Under the pieces are notes generated by a model that was given only the letters and a program-made list of their open reading frames with translations, ran no database searches and was not told the DNA's origin. Below are positions 3,075-42,254 of a DNA stretch of 64,000 bases, in pieces. Within the stretch, counting starts at the first letter, position 1, and the number at the start of each line of letters is the position of its first letter. The DNA is from Bacteroidia bacterium (lineage in GTDB: Bacteria > Bacteroidota > Bacteroidia > J057). The translations under genes and the position numbers were made by a program. The stretch covers positions 62,001-126,000 of the forward strand of contig JAUIGE010000016.1 in the NCBI GenBank assembly GCA_030430205.1, written 5' to 3'.

Positions 3075-3653
3075 ATGACAGCTTTTACCATCCATATACC
3101 GCAATCATGGAGAATGACAGATGAGATGCTGTATGACTTCTGTATCGCGAACCGGGATAAAGTGGTTGAGCGTGATGCTAACAGACAGATTATCATTATG
3201 GCACCTGTAGGCGGTTTATCAAGCTATTACAATGGAGAATTAACCACTGATCTGGTTTTATGGAATAGAAAGAATCAATTAGGAATCACATTTGACTCTT
3301 CAGGCGGTTTTTTTCTCCCTGACGGATCTATGAGGTCTCCTGATGCAGCCTGGATTTCAAATGAAAAATGGGAAAAACTGTCCGAAGTTGAAAGGACAAA
3401 ATTCCCTCCCTTATGCCCTGATTTTGTAATTGAGCTAAGGTCGAAAACAGATCGATTGGGCGAATTGCAATCCAAAATGGAAGAATGGATGGCAAATGGT
3501 TGTCAGTTAGCATGGTTGATTGATCCTGCAAACGAGCAGGTCTTTGTTTTTCGAAAAGGGAAGAAGGTGGAGCAAGTTTCAGGTTTTGATCGCTTACTTT
3601 CCGGAGAAGAGGTTTTGCGTGGCTTTGAACTGGATTTGAGGAGGTATCGGTAA
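3075..3653 (+). CDS. Uma2-family (DUF820) putative restriction-endonuclease-fold protein
   Basis: This 192-residue protein matches the Uma2 family, which has a PD-(D/E)XK restriction-endonuclease-like fold. Visible motifs are S-P-D-A-A-W near the middle, P-D-F-V-I-E-L-R-S about 25 residues later, and K-M-x-E-W near residue 135 followed by A-W-L-I-D-P. The D...E-x-(R/K) arrangement supports an intact metal-binding site. Uma2 proteins are very abundant in cyanobacteria and scattered in Bacteroidota; their biological role and targets are not established. The gene is more AT-rich than cmk/ispH and lies next to an antitoxin-like small gene, suggesting a small accessory patch. Confidence 0.8.
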   Translation: MTAFTIHIPQSWRMTDEMLYDFCIANRDKVVERDANRQIIIMAPVGGLSSYYNGELTTDLVLWNRKNQLGITFDSSGGFFLPDGSMRSPDAAWISNEKWEKLSEVERTKFPPLCPDFVIELRSKTDRLGELQSKMEEWMANGCQLAWLIDPANEQVFVFRKGKKVEQVSGFDRLLSGEEVLRGFELDLRRYR

Positions 3654-5052: not shown

Positions 5053-6114
5053 ATGAACATTAGAGATTCTGTCCTAAGTTCGGAAAACAAGGTGTCCAAG
5101 GACACCTTAAAACTAAGCGCCTACGTCAAAGACAGCAGCCATCCGCTCATCGATCGGCTGGAATCATTTGAAGACATCATGAGTCTTGAGATCGGCGATA
5201 CCAGCATGAGCCGGTCCCGAAGTTTGGAGCGGGACTATGACCTCCGTCAGGTATACCTGAAGTTTGAGGGAGATAATCCCACCGGCACCCAAAAGGACCG
5301 CATCGGCTTCGCCCAGGTCTACGACGCCCTGCGTCGTGGCTATGACACCCTGAGTCTTGCCACCTGTGGCAACTATGGCGCCTCGGTAGCCCTGGCTACC
5401 AACCTGGCGGGCCTGAAATGCAACATTTACATTCCCAAAAACTACCATACAGAAAGATTGGGAGAGATGGAAAAGCTGGGAGCGAACATCTTTCGTCTGG
5501 GAGATTCCTACGAAGAAGCGGTCATGAAAAGCAGCGAAGCCGCTGTGGAAAACGAATGGTACGACGCCAATCCCGGAGGCGAAAATACCAGCCTGCAGAT
5601 CACCTCTTACAGCCAGATTGCCTACGAAATTTATGACCAGCTGAGAGACGCGCCAAAGTTCTGCGCCGTGCCTGTCTCCAATGGGACCCTGCTCGCAGGG
5701 ATTTACAGGGGCTTTGTGTCGCTGCACAAAAGAGGCAAAACATCGCGCATTCCCCGCTTTATCGCGGGTTCTTCGGTATTCAAGAATCCGATCGTCTATT
5801 CCTACAACAAAAAACTGGAGAAATGTGTCGACCTGAATCCTGCGATGATCAAGGAGACAAAAATCAATGAACCGCTTATCAACTGGCACAGCTTCGATGG
5901 AGAAGAAGCGCTCTACGCTCTCCAGCAATCCAATGGATTGGCATACAATATCAGCGATCAGAAAATGAAGAAAATGGCGGCTTATCTCGCCAAACGGGAA
6001 TCCATGAAGGTGCTTCCGGCCTCTACGGCGGGACTTTTGGGGCTTTTGGCTTGTCATGAGGCTGAGCCTCTGGAGCCGGATCGCTTTGTCGTGATCCTTA
6101 CGTCTAAAAATTGA
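5053..6114 (+). CDS. Threonine-synthase-like PLP-dependent enzyme (fold type II)
   Basis: This 353-residue protein belongs to the tryptophan synthase beta/threonine synthase superfamily. The PLP lysine is K81 in N-P-T-G-T-Q-K-D-R, the substrate/phosphate loop is T-C-G-N-Y-G-A-S (104-111), and the PLP-ring contact appears as the late P-A-S-T-A-G segment. It would act in the cytosol on a serine-, homoserine-phosphate- or threonine-like amino acid. It is not next to homoserine kinase or aspartokinase. Instead it opens a five-gene run with DUF1611, MurL-like, creatininase and epimerase genes, so it may make or degrade a specialised amino acid in that pathway rather than ordinary threonine. A spacer of 67 bases separates it from the next gene. 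Confidence 0.8.
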   Translation: MNIRDSVLSSENKVSKDTLKLSAYVKDSSHPLIDRLESFEDIMSLEIGDTSMSRSRSLERDYDLRQVYLKFEGDNPTGTQKDRIGFAQVYDALRRGYDTLSLATCGNYGASVALATNLAGLKCNIYIPKNYHTERLGEMEKLGANIFRLGDSYEEAVMKSSEAAVENEWYDANPGGENTSLQITSYSQIAYEIYDQLRDAPKFCAVPVSNGTLLAGIYRGFVSLHKRGKTSRIPRFIAGSSVFKNPIVYSYNKKLEKCVDLNPAMIKETKINEPLINWHSFDGEEALYALQQSNGLAYNISDQKMKKMAAYLAKRESMKVLPASTAGLLGLLACHEAEPLEPDRFVVILTSKN

Positions 6115-6181
6115 TGTGATGAAAGGTCATCCGATTTGTAAATTGTCAATCGCCTTCTGTAAAAAATAAAAGCGAAGAATT

Positions 6182-7255
6182 ATGAAAAAAATACTCGACG
6201 GCAATGCCCTGGTTTATTGTCAGGACGCCTTCAATACGCCCAACGGAAAAACGGCCCATGGCCTGGTACGGTTCACACACAGATACAATGTGCTCGGCGT
6301 TTTAGATTCAACTTATGCGGGGCAGGATAGCGGAATGGTACTGGATGGAAAAGCCAATGGCATTCCGATATATGCCACTTTTGAAGAGGCTATGACCTCT
6401 TTTGCAGCACAGGACATCGACCTGTCCTACTTTGTGATCGGCCTCGCGCCTGACGGCGGCAGGCTGCCGGCTCCCGCCAAAGCTGTCGTGCGCAAGGCGC
6501 TCGAAAACGGCCTGCATGTAGACTCCGGTCTGCACGACTTCCTTTCCAAAGATCCGGAAATCCTCGCTTTGGCACATGCCAAAAACCTCCAGATCAGAGA
6601 CGTCAGGATGACGCCTGACAGGGACAAACTGCATTTTTTCACAGGAGACATAGAGCAGGTAAAATGCCTCAAACTGGCTGTATTGGGCACAGACTCCGCC
6701 ATCGGCAAGCGCACCACTTCCTGGCTGATCGTGCATGGGCTGGAAGCGAAAGGCAAAAAAGCACAGATGGTCGGCACAGGCCAGACCGCCTGGATGCAGG
6801 GCGCCAAGTACTCCATGATCATGGACAGCTGCATCAATGATTTTGTCTCGGGAGAGATCGAGCATGCGGTCGTCAGCGCCTGGAAAAACGAGCAGCCCGA
6901 TGTCATCGTCATCGAAGGGCAAGGCAGCCTGATGAATCCCGCCTATCCGGGCGGTTTTGAGATTCTGGCCGCCGGGCGGCCTGACTACGTCATCCTGCAA
7001 CATGCCCCCAAAAGGGTAGAATACGACGGCTTTCCCGGATACATACTCCATGATCTGGAAACCCAGATCAACGCTATCAAAGTCATTTCAGGCAAAGAAG
7101 TCATCGCTATCACCCTCAATCATGAGGAGATGACAGAAGATGAAATCCTGCCCGCATGTGAAAAAATAACCGCAGAGACAGGACTTCCCTGTTTTGATGT
7201 CCTGGCCCATGGGGCGGATGGATTGGTTAATCTCCTTATTCAAAAACTGCTATAA
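6182..7255 (+). CDS. DUF1611-family protein (DgcN-like)
   Basis: This 357-residue protein is a DUF1611 member with an N-terminal Rossmann-like region and a C-terminal P-loop-like region. The second part has V-L-G-T-D-S-A-I-G-K-R-T-T at about residues 175-187 and the family's I-E-G-Q-G-S-L-M-N-P-A-Y-P-G motif at about 245-258. Some DUF1611 proteins (DgcN) have been described as N-acetylating D-glutamate in a catabolic route whose second enzyme, DgcA, is an enolase-superfamily racemase. A suitable enolase-superfamily gene is present three genes downstream here. Whether this member uses D-glutamate or another D-amino acid or peptide is inference. Its TAA stop overlaps the next ATG by one base, so the pair is translationally coupled. 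Confidence 0.8.
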   Translation: MKKILDGNALVYCQDAFNTPNGKTAHGLVRFTHRYNVLGVLDSTYAGQDSGMVLDGKANGIPIYATFEEAMTSFAAQDIDLSYFVIGLAPDGGRLPAPAKAVVRKALENGLHVDSGLHDFLSKDPEILALAHAKNLQIRDVRMTPDRDKLHFFTGDIEQVKCLKLAVLGTDSAIGKRTTSWLIVHGLEAKGKKAQMVGTGQTAWMQGAKYSMIMDSCINDFVSGEIEHAVVSAWKNEQPDVIVIEGQGSLMNPAYPGGFEILAAGRPDYVILQHAPKRVEYDGFPGYILHDLETQINAIKVISGKEVIAITLNHEEMTEDEILPACEKITAETGLPCFDVLAHGADGLVNLLIQKLL

Positions 7256-8763
7256 TGGGCGTTTCGCTAGAAGATTTTGTTGTTTTTCATAGCCTGCGGG
7301 TTCATGAAATTTCGGTACAGCCGAAACAGGTAAAAGCAAGCTACAGCTTGCACAAGAAGGATGGAGAGATCGTGAGCAGCGAGCTCATCTACTCTTATGA
7401 AGAAGCTGTTTTTCAGCCCAAAAGCTGGGAAAGTATGAACATGGCTTCCATGATGGTGGCGCAGGTCGCGATGAATTATGGGCTTTTCTGCGAAAAAATC
7501 ATTTTCGAAGGGCTGTATGAGCCGGTAGATCAGCGCTTTATCATGGACATGACGGAGAATACAAGCCGCGAAATTTATGTCCATAAACTGCTCAATCCGA
7601 CGGAATTTTTGATCCCGCCCTTTAACCAACTGCAAACGGAAAGGAAGAAACGCTTCACTTTTGCGCAGATTGAGTTTGAGACAGAAAGCTTTAAGCATCT
7701 TCAAAAGTCAGCAGTTGTTTCTACCCCTGATGAAGACAAATACGCGATCCTGAGCAGCGGCGGCAAAGACAGTTTGCTGAGCTACGGATTGCTGAATGAG
7801 CATTTTGAGGCGCATCCCATCTATGTCAATGAATCCGGCAGACATTGGTTTACGGCTTACAATGCCTACCATTATTTCAAGGAAAAAGAACCGCTGACGG
7901 GCAAAGTTTGGTGCAATAGCGACCGGGTGTTCAACTGGATGGTGAAGCACATGTCTTTCATCAAGCCCAATTTTCAGAACATCCGTTCCGATCAATACCC
8001 CATCCGTCTGTGGACGGTGAGCGTCTTTCTCTGGGGGGTGCTCCCGCTTGCCCGCAAGCGCAATATCAAAAACATCATCATCGGCAATGAGTACGATACT
8101 TCGCTGAAGCTTCAGCATGACGGCATCCGGCATTATGCGGGTCTTTATGACCAAAGCAAATATTTTGACAATGCCCACAGCCGCTATTACCAGAAGAAAG
8201 CCTGGGGCGTGTTGCAGTTTTCGCTTTTGCGTTCGCTGTCTGAATTGTTGATTCTGAAGATTTTGGTGAAAAGGTATCCCGAGCTGCAGGCGCAGCAGGT
8301 GTCCTGTCACGCCAGCCACAAAGAAGGCGAGCGCATGCTCCCTTGCGGCAATTGCGAGAAGTGCCGACGCATCGTCGGCATGCTCAAGGCACTCGACGAG
8401 GATCCCGGGAGATGCGGCTACACAGCCGAGCAGATACAGCAATGCCTCAAGGCATTGGAGACCAAAAAAGTCAAGCAATTGGGCTCTGACGCCCAGCAGC
8501 TCTATTATATGCTCAGCCAAAAAGGGCTGATCACGGTCGGACCGGAAAACCGCAAAATGCTCAAAGAAAACAAAGAGATTTTGGGTCAAAGGTTTGATGC
8601 AGAAAAAAGCAATATGGAAGATTTGCCAATGTACATCCGCAAGCCTTTAATGGATATTTATGCGCAATACTCACATGGCGCTTTCAACCTGAGTTTTCGG
8701 GAATGGTTGCCCTATGAGTTGAGTCAGGACGATTTTCAACTTCCTTATGTGTTAAACAAGTAA
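7255..8763 (+). CDS. PP-loop protein resembling MurL peptidyl-glutamate epimerase
   Basis: This 502-residue protein contains an ATP-pyrophosphatase (PP-loop) signature, S-S-G-G-K-D-S at residues 167-173. It also has G-N-E-Y-D-T-S (277-283), F-S-L-L-R-S-L-S-E-L (322-331), a cysteine at 351 and a C-x2-C-x2-C cluster (C364, C367, C370). In order and spacing these recall MurL, the ATP-dependent enzyme of Xanthomonas that epimerises the terminal L-Glu of UDP-MurNAc-L-Ala-L-Glu. I match this from memory, not by alignment. The N-terminal 150 residues are a separate beta-rich region. Adjacent epimerase and D-glutamate-related genes fit a glutamyl-epimerising role. No MurD2-type ligase is visible here, so the substrate may differ from that of Xanthomonas MurL. 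Confidence 0.65.
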   Translation: MGVSLEDFVVFHSLRVHEISVQPKQVKASYSLHKKDGEIVSSELIYSYEEAVFQPKSWESMNMASMMVAQVAMNYGLFCEKIIFEGLYEPVDQRFIMDMTENTSREIYVHKLLNPTEFLIPPFNQLQTERKKRFTFAQIEFETESFKHLQKSAVVSTPDEDKYAILSSGGKDSLLSYGLLNEHFEAHPIYVNESGRHWFTAYNAYHYFKEKEPLTGKVWCNSDRVFNWMVKHMSFIKPNFQNIRSDQYPIRLWTVSVFLWGVLPLARKRNIKNIIIGNEYDTSLKLQHDGIRHYAGLYDQSKYFDNAHSRYYQKKAWGVLQFSLLRSLSELLILKILVKRYPELQAQQVSCHASHKEGERMLPCGNCEKCRRIVGMLKALDEDPGRCGYTAEQIQQCLKALETKKVKQLGSDAQQLYYMLSQKGLITVGPENRKMLKENKEILGQRFDAEKSNMEDLPMYIRKPLMDIYAQYSHGAFNLSFREWLPYELSQDDFQLPYVLNK

Positions 8764-8771
8764 AAAATACA

Positions 8772-9563
8772 ATGAACAATACAGAATCTTTTTTTTGGGA
8801 ATCCCTGACCTGGGAAGAGCTCGAAGAGCGCTTGAAAATAGTCGACACGGCTATCCTGCCTTGTGGAGCCATTGAGCAACATGGCAGGCACCTGCCTGTA
8901 GATATCGACTACTTCGATGCGGTCTACCTGGCCCGCAAAGTGGCCGAAGCCTGTAGCGAGCCCAAGCCCTTTGTGCTGCCGCCCATCCCCTATGGCGTTT
9001 CCTACCACCATGAAGATTTCAAAGGCACGCTCAGCGTCACCAACAATGCCCTTTCGGCTTTTGTCTATGACATCGGTATGGGCCTCGCCCGCAACGGCAT
9101 CAAAAAACTCATCATCCTCAACGGCCATGGCGACAATGCGCCTACCCTGCACTATGCCGCGCAGATGATCAACAGAGATGCGAAAATCTTTGTCTGTGTA
9201 GACACAGGCGAGACCAGCGATGTGGACATCAGCCACCTGATCACCACCCCCAACGACATCCATGCCGGAGAGATCGAGACCAGTACCACCCTGGCCATCC
9301 GCCCGGAAATGGTCAAAATGGATAAAGCTGTCAATGAGACCCTGGCATTTGGAAGCAAATTTCTGGATTTTGACTACGACCAATCTGTCAACTGGTACGT
9401 CAGAACCAGCAAAATATCCGAGAGCGGTGTCATGGGAGATGCCACCAAAGCTACAGCGGATAAGGGCATGAAAATGTGGGAAATCATGATTCAGCAGTTG
9501 GTGAAATTTGTTGAATCCATCAAGGCCAGTGACCTCGAAGACCTCTACCAAAAACGGTATTGA
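8772..9563 (+). CDS. Creatininase-family metal-dependent amidohydrolase
   Basis: This 263-residue protein shows the creatininase fold motifs: G-A-I-E-Q-H-G (33-39) followed by L-P-V-D-I-D (41-46), N-G-H-G-D-N (117-122) and H-A-G-E-I-E-T-S (164-171). These supply the Glu/His/Asp/His/Glu ligands for a two-metal site, so it should be catalytically competent. Family members hydrolyse cyclic or linear amides (creatinine, the mycofactocin precursor peptide, formamide intermediates). It begins 8 bases after the MurL-like gene and ends 3 bases before the epimerase gene, so its substrate is probably an amide or short peptide of the same pathway. Use on creatinine is unlikely from context. Confidence 0.85.
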   Translation: MNNTESFFWESLTWEELEERLKIVDTAILPCGAIEQHGRHLPVDIDYFDAVYLARKVAEACSEPKPFVLPPIPYGVSYHHEDFKGTLSVTNNALSAFVYDIGMGLARNGIKKLIILNGHGDNAPTLHYAAQMINRDAKIFVCVDTGETSDVDISHLITTPNDIHAGEIETSTTLAIRPEMVKMDKAVNETLAFGSKFLDFDYDQSVNWYVRTSKISESGVMGDATKATADKGMKMWEIMIQQLVKFVESIKASDLEDLYQKRY

Positions 9564-9566
9564 TCC

Positions 9567-10613
9567 ATGAAAATCCGCTCGATTGATTACGAAAGGCTGG
9601 ATTTGCAATTGTCAGAGCCCTACACCATTGCCTATGAGACCATAGACAGGGCCACCAATTTCATCCTGAAACTCCATACCGATGATGGCATCACAGGCTA
9701 TGGCTGCGCTGCACCCGACATTGTCATCACCCATGAGACTGCGGAGGAGGTAGAACTCGCTATCAATCAAAAGATTATCCCTGCATTGATGGGGCAAAAT
9801 CCTTTTCATTACGCAAGGATTTTGAGTGAATTGAGGCCCGAAATCAAGTCCTCTGCCCTTTCCATGGTGGATATTGCGCTTTTTGATTTGATGGCAAAAA
9901 AGGCGGATGTGCCTGTTTATGAGTTGCTGGGCGGCTATCGCCATAAAATCGCGACCAGCATCACCATCGGCATACTGCCGATGGACAAGACCCTGCGCAA
10001 AGCGCAGGAATTCATCGCTCTGGGCTTTGAGATCATCAAACTCAAAGGCGGCCTCGATGTAGAGGGAGACATCGAAAAGATCAAAGCCATCCGAAAGAAA
10101 TATCCGAAGCTTACGCTGAGGTTTGATGGCAACCAGGGCTATGACCTGGAAACGGCTTTATACTTTATCCAGGAGACCGAAAAGTATAAAATCGAAATCC
10201 TGGAGCAACCCACCCATACGCAGGATGAAAGCCTGATGGGCGTTCTCAACAAGCAGACAAGCATGCCCATCATGGCGGATGAAAGCCTCAAAACGCTGGG
10301 AGATGCCTTTCGCCTCACCAGCAAAGGCTATTCCGATATGATCAATATCAAGATCATGAAAGTCGGCGGCCTGCTTCAGGCGCAGCACATCAATTCCGTC
10401 GCCAAATCAGCTCAAAATGAGGTTATGGTCGGCTGCCTCGACGAGTGCGGCCTGGGCATTTCCGCAGGCTTGCATTTCGCCCTCAGCAGACCCAATATTG
10501 AATTTGCCGATCTGGATGGGCATCTCGACCTGATTGATGATCCCTTCCATGACTTGTTTGTATTGGAAAAAGGCTACCTGATTCCCAATGGGAAGATTGG
10601 GATTGGGAGATAG
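9567..10613 (+). CDS. Dipeptide-epimerase-type enolase superfamily enzyme (DgcA/YcjG-like)
   Basis: This 348-residue protein has the mandelate racemase/MLE layout. It has an N-terminal capping domain and a barrel with K-L-K (K158, K160), metal ligands D187 (R-F-D-G-N), E213 (L-E-Q-P) and D238 (A-D-E-S), and the second-face lysine K262 (N-I-K). The D238-to-K262 spacing of 24 matches the Ala-Glu epimerases, in which two lysines on opposite faces carry out 1,1-proton transfer. Known functions in this group include L-Ala-D/L-Glu epimerase (murein peptide recycling) and N-acetyl-D-glutamate racemase (DgcA). It is the last gene of the five-gene run. Which substrate applies cannot be read from sequence alone. 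Confidence 0.85.
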   Translation: MKIRSIDYERLDLQLSEPYTIAYETIDRATNFILKLHTDDGITGYGCAAPDIVITHETAEEVELAINQKIIPALMGQNPFHYARILSELRPEIKSSALSMVDIALFDLMAKKADVPVYELLGGYRHKIATSITIGILPMDKTLRKAQEFIALGFEIIKLKGGLDVEGDIEKIKAIRKKYPKLTLRFDGNQGYDLETALYFIQETEKYKIEILEQPTHTQDESLMGVLNKQTSMPIMADESLKTLGDAFRLTSKGYSDMINIKIMKVGGLLQAQHINSVAKSAQNEVMVGCLDECGLGISAGLHFALSRPNIEFADLDGHLDLIDDPFHDLFVLEKGYLIPNGKIGIGR

Positions 10614-11759: not shown

Positions 11760-11763
11760 GTAG

Positions 11764-11812
11764 AATAGAGAATAGAGAATAGAGAATAGAGAATAGAGAA
11801 TAGAGAATAGAG
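11764..11812. repeat. Heptanucleotide tandem repeat, seven copies of AATAGAG
   Basis: Seven perfect, contiguous copies of the 7-base unit AATAGAG begin 4 bases after the kinase stop codon. Because 7 is not a multiple of 3, the array is read in all frames and produces misleading low-complexity reading frames on the minus strand. The same unit in another phase (GAGAATA) recurs at 16442-16462 after a variant array. Confidence 0.97.
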
Positions 11813-11819
11813 ACTCGGA

Positions 11820-11882
11820 ACCCGAAACCCGAAACCCAAAACACGAAACCCAAAACACGAAACCCAAAACACGAAACCCAAA
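11820..11882. repeat. Second heptamer array (ACCCGAA/ACCCAAA/ACACGAA)
   Basis: Nine contiguous 7-base units follow the AATAGAG array. Two are ACCCGAA, then ACCCAAA and ACACGAA alternate to form a 14-base repeat present three and a half times. The array ends 15 bases before the M16 peptidase ATG, in the place where a leader or ribosome-binding site would be. A looser version of the same CCGAAACT-like sequence lies before the HIT gene near 38331-38365. Confidence 0.95.
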
Positions 11883-11897
11883 ACAAGAATTCCCCCC

Positions 11898-16392: not shown

Positions 16393-16462
16393 GAGAGCAG
16401 AGAGCAGAGAGCAGAGAGCAGAGAGCAGAGAGCAGAGAGCAGAGAATAGAGAATAGAGAATA
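16393..16462. repeat. Heptanucleotide tandem repeat: GAGAGCA x7 then GAGAATA x3
   Basis: Ten contiguous 7-base units start at the first base after the M16-like stop codon. Seven are GAGAGCA and three are GAGAATA. The last unit is 14 bases before the next ATG, so the array fills the intergenic space. The unit family (GAGARYA) is shared with the arrays at 11764 and 17507. Confidence 0.97.
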
Positions 16463-16476
16463 GAGAAAGTACAAGA

Positions 16477-17506: not shown

Positions 17507-17534
17507 GAGAGCAGAGAACAGAGAGCAGAGAACA
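17507..17534. repeat. Short heptamer array GAGAGCA/GAGAACA
   Basis: Four contiguous 7-base units alternate GAGAGCA and GAGAACA. They lie between the start of the Dps-like gene (read leftward from 17408) and the end of the large T9SS gene (stop at 17542). This is the third location of the same unit family in 6 kb. Confidence 0.93.
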
Positions 17535-17541
17535 GAGACTT

Positions 17542-41390: not shown

Positions 41391-41428
41391 GTAAACCGTT
41401 TGGGTACCAAATACCTATTGCGGTTTAC
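41391..41428. terminator. Bidirectional terminator overlapping the MscS 3' end
   Basis: GTAAACCG at 41391-41398 pairs with CGGTTTAC at 41421-41428 around a 22-base loop that can fold further. An A-run precedes it and TTTTG follows. The right arm encodes the last residues of the minus-strand MscS protein, so the terminator overlaps its coding end. Confidence 0.6.
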
Positions 41429-42254
41429 TTTTGATATGTATATCGCGCTGCGGGAAAGGGATTTCCACGCCGTATTTGCGGAAGTTTTCCTCAATGTTAT
41501 AGCGGATCTGGCTCTTGACAGGCTCGATGCCAAAATTTTCATTTGACCAAAAGAGCAACTGAAAGTTGAGGGAAGAATCCCCAAAATCCGTAAAACGGAT
41601 TTCCAGTTCCGGCTCATCCAGCACAGCTGGATGTACCTGGGCGGATTCAGTCAGTGCCTGCCTGACTGCTTTGATATTTGAGCCATAGGCTACGCCCACA
41701 TTGATTCTGAATCGTGTCGGGCCATCATTATGGCTCCAGTTAACGACATTTTCTCCCGTCATTTTTGAATTGGGAACGATCACACTGATGCTATCATTGG
41801 TTTCCAGGGTAGTAGCCCTCAGGCCAATCTTTTTTACTTTCCCCACCAAATCTCCCACCTGCATTACATCGGCCTCCTCCAGGCTGCCATCAAAAAGGAT
41901 GATAATCCCACTGAGGAAGTCATTGAATGTGTTTTGAAGGCCAAAACCTATGCCTACAAACAGTGCCGCAGAAGCTCCAATCAGCCAGGAAATCTGAATG
42001 CCCGCTGCTTCTATCGCCAATAAGATAGAAACAGTATATAAAATGTATTTGAGGATCTGACCAAAGGCTTTCATCCTTCCGGGATCCAGGTGAGGCTTGC
42101 GTTTTATCTGCCGTCTGATCAGCCGGGAGATCAATTTGGAAACCAAGCTGGCAAGCAATAGGATGGTAAAGGCAATCAAAAGACTGCCTATGGTTAGGTT
42201 ATATTTCCCAAAAGGGATAAGATTAAGTTCGAGAATTTCCTGAAGACTTTTCAT
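41415..42254 (-). CDS. MscS-family mechanosensitive channel
   Basis: This 279-residue protein has three membrane segments in the first 110 residues. The pore-lining helix TM3 is the glycine/alanine-rich A-A-L-F-V-G-I-G-F-G-L-Q-N, followed by the conserved D-F-L-S-G-I-I-I-L-F-D-G and the beta domain with E-A-D-V-M-Q-V-G and T-T-L-E-T-N-D-S. It is a compact MscS that opens under osmotic downshock. It stands between the DUF2892 gene and the Clp-like cluster. Confidence 0.92.
   Translation of the reverse strand: MKSLQEILELNLIPFGKYNLTIGSLLIAFTILLLASLVSKLISRLIRRQIKRKPHLDPGRMKAFGQILKYILYTVSILLAIEAAGIQISWLIGASAALFVGIGFGLQNTFNDFLSGIIILFDGSLEEADVMQVGDLVGKVKKIGLRATTLETNDSISVIVPNSKMTGENVVNWSHNDGPTRFRINVGVAYGSNIKAVRQALTESAQVHPAVLDEPELEIRFTDFGDSSLNFQLLFWSNENFGIEPVKSQIRYNIEENFRKYGVEIPFPQRDIHIKSKPQ

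Follow-up and report, generated by a model that had tools for sequence, protein, structure and literature searches.

A conserved five-gene operon with a MurL-like PP-loop protein, probably concerned with D-form non-glutamate amino-acid compounds

The window analysed here is a stretch of 64,000 nucleotides from a Bacteroidia bacterium (assembly GCA_030430205.1, contig JAUIGE010000016.1, positions 62,001 to 126,000 of the forward strand), whose genome comprises 7.24 Mb in 80 contigs. It carries an operon of five genes, here designated g1 to g5, which encode a pyridoxal 5'-phosphate (PLP)-dependent enzyme, a DUF1611 protein, a MurL-like PP-loop protein, a creatininase-family amidohydrolase and an enolase-superfamily epimerase (Table 1). 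The same gene order is found in about ten phyla, which points to a dedicated pathway, and the operon probably makes or converts the D-form of a non-glutamate amino-acid compound. An earlier note on this DNA, made from the sequence, had proposed a novel combination of genes centred on glutamate stereochemistry. Searches of the open-access literature yielded no account of this combination, and the five-gene set is apparently undescribed so far; the theme of amino-acid or peptide stereochemistry is also supported, but the glutamate part of the proposal is not.

Conservation, fusion and modular variants

The intergenic distances from g1 to g5 are 67, -1, 8 and 3 bases, g2 and g3 having one base in common in the overlap TAATG. 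The gaps of 3-8 bases and the one-base overlap had already been noticed, but the 67-base gap after g1 had gone unmentioned. Relatives of g3 were obtained by a scan of named genome contigs, which yielded 193, and the locus counts given here refer to the best 80 of these 193. These 80 loci belong to Bacteroidota, Calditrichota, Ignavibacteria/Melioribacteraceae, SAR324, Desulfobacterota and other deltaproteobacteria, Aminicenantes, Acidobacteria, Planctomycetota, KSB1, Zixibacteria, Gemmatimonadota and Latescibacterota, many of the host bacteria being marine, and in 60 of the 80 the five genes are complete and in identical order. When 395 genomes of the phylum were searched with g3, 11 clear homologues were found, with g1, g2 and g4 alongside in all 11 and g5 in ten; the whole set co-occurs, not single genes of it. 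Moreover, the protein distances co-vary for every gene pair (Mantel r 0.68-0.87, none of 200 permutations reaching the observed value), a co-variation in which shared host descent and joint transfer are combined. With its ordered occurrence and co-varying distances the operon is confirmed as real, well beyond chance, and it can be regarded as one functional unit, as the earlier note had it.

Table 1. Features of the window, and of two related loci, referred to in the text
Feature	Position	Strand	Product	Basis
g1	5053..6114	+	353-residue PLP-dependent enzyme, PRK06381 "threonine synthase" family	PALP and NF004996
g2	6182..7255	+	357-residue DUF1611 protein, DgcN-like fold family	N- and C-terminal DUF1611 domains
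g3	7255..8763	+	502-residue MurL-like PP-loop protein	SGGKDS loop, C-H-C-C-C zinc-type motif, hhalign to MurL
g4	8772..9563	+	263-residue metal-dependent amidohydrolase, creatininase family	PF02633, E 2e-68
g5	9567..10613	+	348-residue enolase-superfamily dipeptide epimerase, acidic substrate pocket	MR_MLE domains
Uma2-type gene	3075-3653		Putative nuclease, upstream of the operon	
MscS-type gene	41415-42254	-	Mechanosensitive channel, nearest MscS found in the window, about 31 kb downstream of the operon	
GNAT-nitrilase gene, locus L026	13422-14951		GNAT-nitrilase fusion protein	
GNAT-nitrilase gene, locus L083	5691-7250		GNAT-nitrilase fusion protein	

The distribution of the operon is patchy. 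In the family of the window g3 is present in three of 13 genomes, and it is not found in the other genome of its genus; no relative of g3 was detected in the plasmid collection. Among cultured genera the operon occurs, for example, in Maribacter, Zeaxanthinibacter, Lewinella and Kordia, so that direct testing is possible.

Several variants of the gene arrangement have been found. In 26 of the 80 loci g3 and g4 form a single open reading frame (ORF), mostly of 774-831 codons (676 in one case), with a linker of variable sequence between the two parts. Nine Bacteroidota genomes carry g1-g2-g5 without g3 and g4, and four loci (L014, L068, L081 and, in the window's own family, L220) carry g1-g3-g4 without a local g2 and g5. 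g5 alone is absent at five loci, and in L033 and L038 g3-g4 are present and g1 is absent. Where a local g2 is lacking, most of the sampled genomes carry a more distant DUF1611 gene at another site, which in several of them adjoins a second epimerase. These modular variants, together with the DUF1611 paralogues, suggest that the pairs g2-g5 and g3-g4 act as units, and their natural reading is that of two units arranged around g1. A PRK06381 protein scoring above the model cut-off is encoded in 16 of 296 Bacteroidota genomes, and in all 16 its gene adjoins the DUF1611 gene of the set. No sixth gene is constant; those for a GNAT-nitrilase protein, CorA, MscS and Usp are met repeatedly around the operon without being so.

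Relationships of the five proteins

MurL catalyses an ATP- and Mg2+-dependent, one-way epimerisation with release of AMP, for which an acyl-adenylate has been proposed (PMC8788868, PMC5808125). g3 gave no match to Pfam and NCBIfam models, nor to the MurL equivalog model NF041275 (cut-off 700 bits) at E values up to 10; a search of the window's own genome likewise returned no match, but none of 14 controls matched either, so that this second search is no evidence by itself. A comparison between profiles was made with a MurL set consisting of the annotated murL of Xanthomonas sacchari, which adjoins a murD, and three Pseudonocardia homologues. In hhalign g3 aligned to this set over 183 columns with a probability of 95.6 and an E value of 1e-8; the control comparisons gave 95.7 for QueC with QatC, 30 for g3 with QatC, 17 for g3 with QueC and 3 for MurL with QatC, and the sequence profile places g3 with MurL and not with QueC or QatC. 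This match makes the designation "MurL-like PP-loop", used in the earlier note, correct as a statement of homology, but not as an identification of MurL: g3 is, judging from its sequence, a distant homologue of MurL and not MurL itself. The two have in common the PP-loop GGKDS, the LLRxLSEL motif and the region of the cysteine-rich zinc-type motif, the MurL-type core of PP-loop and zinc motif being present in g3, with the SGGKDS loop and the C-H-C-C-C motif among the invariant alignment columns. g3 differs from MurL in that identity is about 26% in the matched region, in the lack of a MurD2 partner, in the presence of MurI in the genome, and in being fused to or adjoining a creatininase-family protein; no MurD-like protein was found among the scanned flanking genes. 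As a separate observation, MurL homologues lie on mobilisable Pseudonocardia plasmids (L095, L096 and L097), where they adjoin a large WD40-repeat or hypothetical protein and no annotated murD.

The AlphaFold model of g3 is confident, with a predicted local distance difference test score (pLDDT) of 92 and a predicted template modelling score (pTM) of 0.92. The closest solved folds are those of QatC (VIA-align Z 14.1 over 323 residues) and QueC (Z 13.4), and the nitrile synthetase ArtA is also among the matches. Since no MurL structure is among the matches listed, the fold comparison cannot choose between MurL and QueC/QatC. With QueC, QatC and Cap9 g3 shares the predicted fold, but the profile similarity is weak and the partner genes differ. 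A function in phage defence, as for QatC and Cap9, was rejected: g3 has no match in PADLOC, and its likeness to QatC is one of fold and not of sequence.

For g5 the best match in the PDB is 3jva (E 4e-63), and the catalytic set is complete at all eight positions, with the KxK motif, the D/E/D metal ligands, the second lysine and the DxD motif, which in dipeptide epimerases binds the free amine. Catalytic residues and DxD are common to g5 and the dipeptide epimerases 1jpm, 3jva and 3rit. The pocket is different. Arg24 of the Bacillus subtilis L-Ala-D/L-Glu epimerase, which we take to bind the side chain of the substrate glutamate, is not retained in g5, the position being occupied in its relatives by Glu (58/61), Asp (2/61) or Gln (1/61); in addition, Asp replaces Thr51 in 57 and Ile298 in all 61. 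The combination of E24, D51 and D298 distinguishes g5 from the other dipeptide epimerases; the Methylococcus enzyme 3rit, presumably active on cationic dipeptides, has E51 and D298 but keeps R24. The charge of the g5 pocket is therefore opposite to that of a glutamate-binding pocket, and these residues point most simply to a substrate that is cationic or neutral and would not be glutamate. In the epimerases paired with DUF1611 proteins elsewhere in the genomes, position 24 is mostly Lys.

The PDB relatives of g2 are 2g0t, 2obn and 7xrj. The pair g2-g5 recalls DgcN-DgcA, since in both a DUF1611 protein and an enolase-superfamily epimerase are adjacent in many genomes. The earlier assignment of g2 and g5 to DgcN and DgcA types holds for the two families, but not for the proteins themselves, g2 scoring 153 bits against the DgcN model NF041892 (cut-off 480) and g5 143 bits against the DgcA model NF042940 (cut-off 400). 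Besides these scores, far under the equivalog cut-offs, the acidic pocket of g5 and the joining of g2-g5 to g1 and usually to g3-g4 separate the pair from DgcN-DgcA.

g1 belongs to the PALP family (E 1e-50) and scores 398 bits against NF004996 (PRK06381), above its cut-off of 266; the PLP lysine is kept. According to the sequence alignment with threonine synthase, Gln182, found in all 66 relatives, replaces Arg160 of the T. thermophilus enzyme, a residue which we take to hold the substrate phosphate. Housekeeping threonine synthesis by g1 was rejected in view of this replacement and of the canonical ThrC encoded elsewhere in the genome. In g4 the core metal-site residues (E35, H37, D46 and H119) are kept, as in creatininase and MftE; however, it scores below the cut-offs of both the creatininase model TIGR04448 (111.6 bits, cut-off 235) and the MftE model TIGR03964 (139.2 bits, cut-off 172), the position of creatininase Glu122 is Asp or Gly, and in many genomes it is fused to g3.

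Genomic surroundings

The neighbours of the operon favour ion and osmotic functions. Among 134 immediate neighbours there are seven MscS, four CorA, four CN-hydrolases, four Na+/H+ exchangers, four DUF2807, four DUF2179 and three Usp genes; among 128 genes farther out MscS occurs two or three times, and CorA, exchangers and Usp are not among the families with at least two matches. MscS, CorA, Na+/H+ exchangers and Usp are over-represented among the immediate neighbours, ion and osmotic genes numbering 17 of 132 near the operon against at most six of 128 farther away (p 0.016), a test that excludes two near genes added by hand, one MscS and one nitrilase. For 28 genomes the copies of both genes were counted: the available flanks contain CorA at five of 28 loci where 0.18 would be expected (p about 1e-6), and they contain MscS at four or more of 28 where 0.9 would be expected (p 0.013). 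As CorA had been seen before counting, some loci are related and so not independent of one another, and the two genes are frequently found together, these figures are a lead and not a result; an osmolyte-like product is possible.

Other features of these loci were recorded. Seven loci from different lineages (L013, L026, L027, L030, L032, L049 and L083) encode a GNAT-nitrilase fusion protein close to the operon. An insert of about 8.2 kb separates g2 and g3 in L026, L027 and L030 (Muriicola, Eudoraea) and encodes a PPDK_N protein, two beta-lactamase2-like proteins and a HEAT-repeat protein; in Maribacter and in a metagenome-assembled genome of Bacteroidales (L069) this block lies beside the operon instead. 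In the window itself, arrays of 7-base tandem repeats, some perfect, lie at 11762-11889, 16393-16467 and 17507-17538, their units (AGAATAG, AACCCGA and GAGAGCA) being different. No riboswitch or other known RNA above threshold was found 5' of the operon in the window or in seven relatives.

A proposed pathway and its alternatives

The reading put forward here, tentatively, is that the operon may constitute an intracellular, self-contained pathway acting on a non-glutamate amino acid, X, with the two stereochemistry pairs placed around the PLP enzyme g1. g1 would make or consume X; g2 would attach an acyl or aminoacyl group to its amine, as in the DgcN-DgcA route, and the dipeptide or N-acyl compound so formed would be epimerised at its alpha-carbon by g5, with two lysine bases and Mg2+. 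g3 would spend ATP in adenylating the derivatised X at its carboxylate, a reaction like that proposed for MurL, and the product would be opened or released by g4, a metal-dependent amidohydrolase. The stereochemistry of X would in this way be changed while its amine or carboxylate is derivatised, and the product would probably be a small D-configured amino-acid derivative for intracellular use, perhaps under osmotic or ionic stress. Computation has established the set of genes and its conservation, the g3-g4 fusion and the modular variants, as well as the kept catalytic and changed pocket residues; the reactions, their order, the direction (synthesis and not breakdown) and the physiological role are our inference.

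Some considerations weigh against this pathway. A simple linear pathway would have no need of two routes to epimerisation, which might duplicate each other. The activity of MurL may not extend to g3, the predicted fold being equally that of the amide- and nitrile-forming QueC/QatC enzymes. The enrichment among neighbours is post hoc for CorA and modest for MscS and for the near/far comparison, and in the window itself no enrichment of ion or osmotic genes adjoins the operon.

The operon might instead serve to break down D-amino acids from marine organic matter. It would then take up the task of converting scavenged D-amino acids, or dipeptides with a D-residue, to the L-form, either through acylation and racemisation by g2-g5 or through ATP-driven epimerisation and hydrolysis by g3-g4, and g1 would cleave the L-amino acid. 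In marine and trench Bacteroidetes dgcN has been described as the key gene of a pathway by which acidic D-amino acids and their amides are irreversibly racemised (PMC12363236), and the likeness of g2-g5 to DgcN-DgcA, the many marine hosts, and the nitrilase-like ORF near the g1-g2-g5 variant in L207-L211, with a threonine-aldolase-like ORF in L207 and L209, are all consistent with such a role. However, the conserved set contains no transporter, secreted peptidase or other secreted hydrolase, an ATP-spending epimerase would be costly, and the pocket of g5 is not glutamate-like. Since nothing in the set imports or digests a substrate and ATP would be spent, synthesis is slightly preferred, and breakdown is judged rather unlikely.

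Somewhat less probable still is that g3-g4 is a new amidotransferase, in which the PP-loop protein adenylates a carboxylate, as do QueC and the GMP and NAD synthetases, while ammonia is supplied, or an amide processed, by the creatininase-type domain; the product would then be a C-terminally amidated or nitrile compound and no epimer. An amidohydrolase is a common partner of PP-loop amide synthetases (GuaA, AsnB, NadE), to which it is joined, and the fusion of g3 to g4 and the nearness of its fold to QatC and QueC, with ArtA among the matches, agree with this. Against it, the profile of g3 is closest to that of MurL, an enzyme that forms no amide, and creatininases are not known to act as ammonia donors. 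The D-glutamate route first suggested, whether for a wall peptide, for the recycling of one or for a D-Glu peptide, could appeal to the distant homologies of g3 to MurL and of g2-g5 to the DgcN and L-Ala-D/L-Glu epimerase families, but it is very improbable given the acidic g5 pocket and the missed equivalog cut-offs of g2, g3 and g5, and supply of D-glutamate to the wall was rejected in view of the genome's own MurI (227 bits, cut-off 147).

Returning to the pathway on X, its most specific form, an as yet undescribed pathway, distributed over many phyla and mainly in marine and sediment bacteria, that makes a D-configured amino-acid solute for osmotic or ionic balance by means of a new fused enzyme of MurL-type PP-loop and creatininase-type parts, is speculative and rather doubtful. 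Automatic annotation of these genes would be misled by the family names "threonine synthase", DUF1611, "creatininase" and "L-Ala-D/L-Glu epimerase"; an order kept over about ten phyla nevertheless indicates a definite biochemical job for the five-gene set. If the g3-g4 fusion is an ATP-driven epimerase or an amide-forming enzyme, it would represent a new enzyme architecture for a fold whose other known roles lie in the synthesis of queuosine and of the wall and in phage defence.

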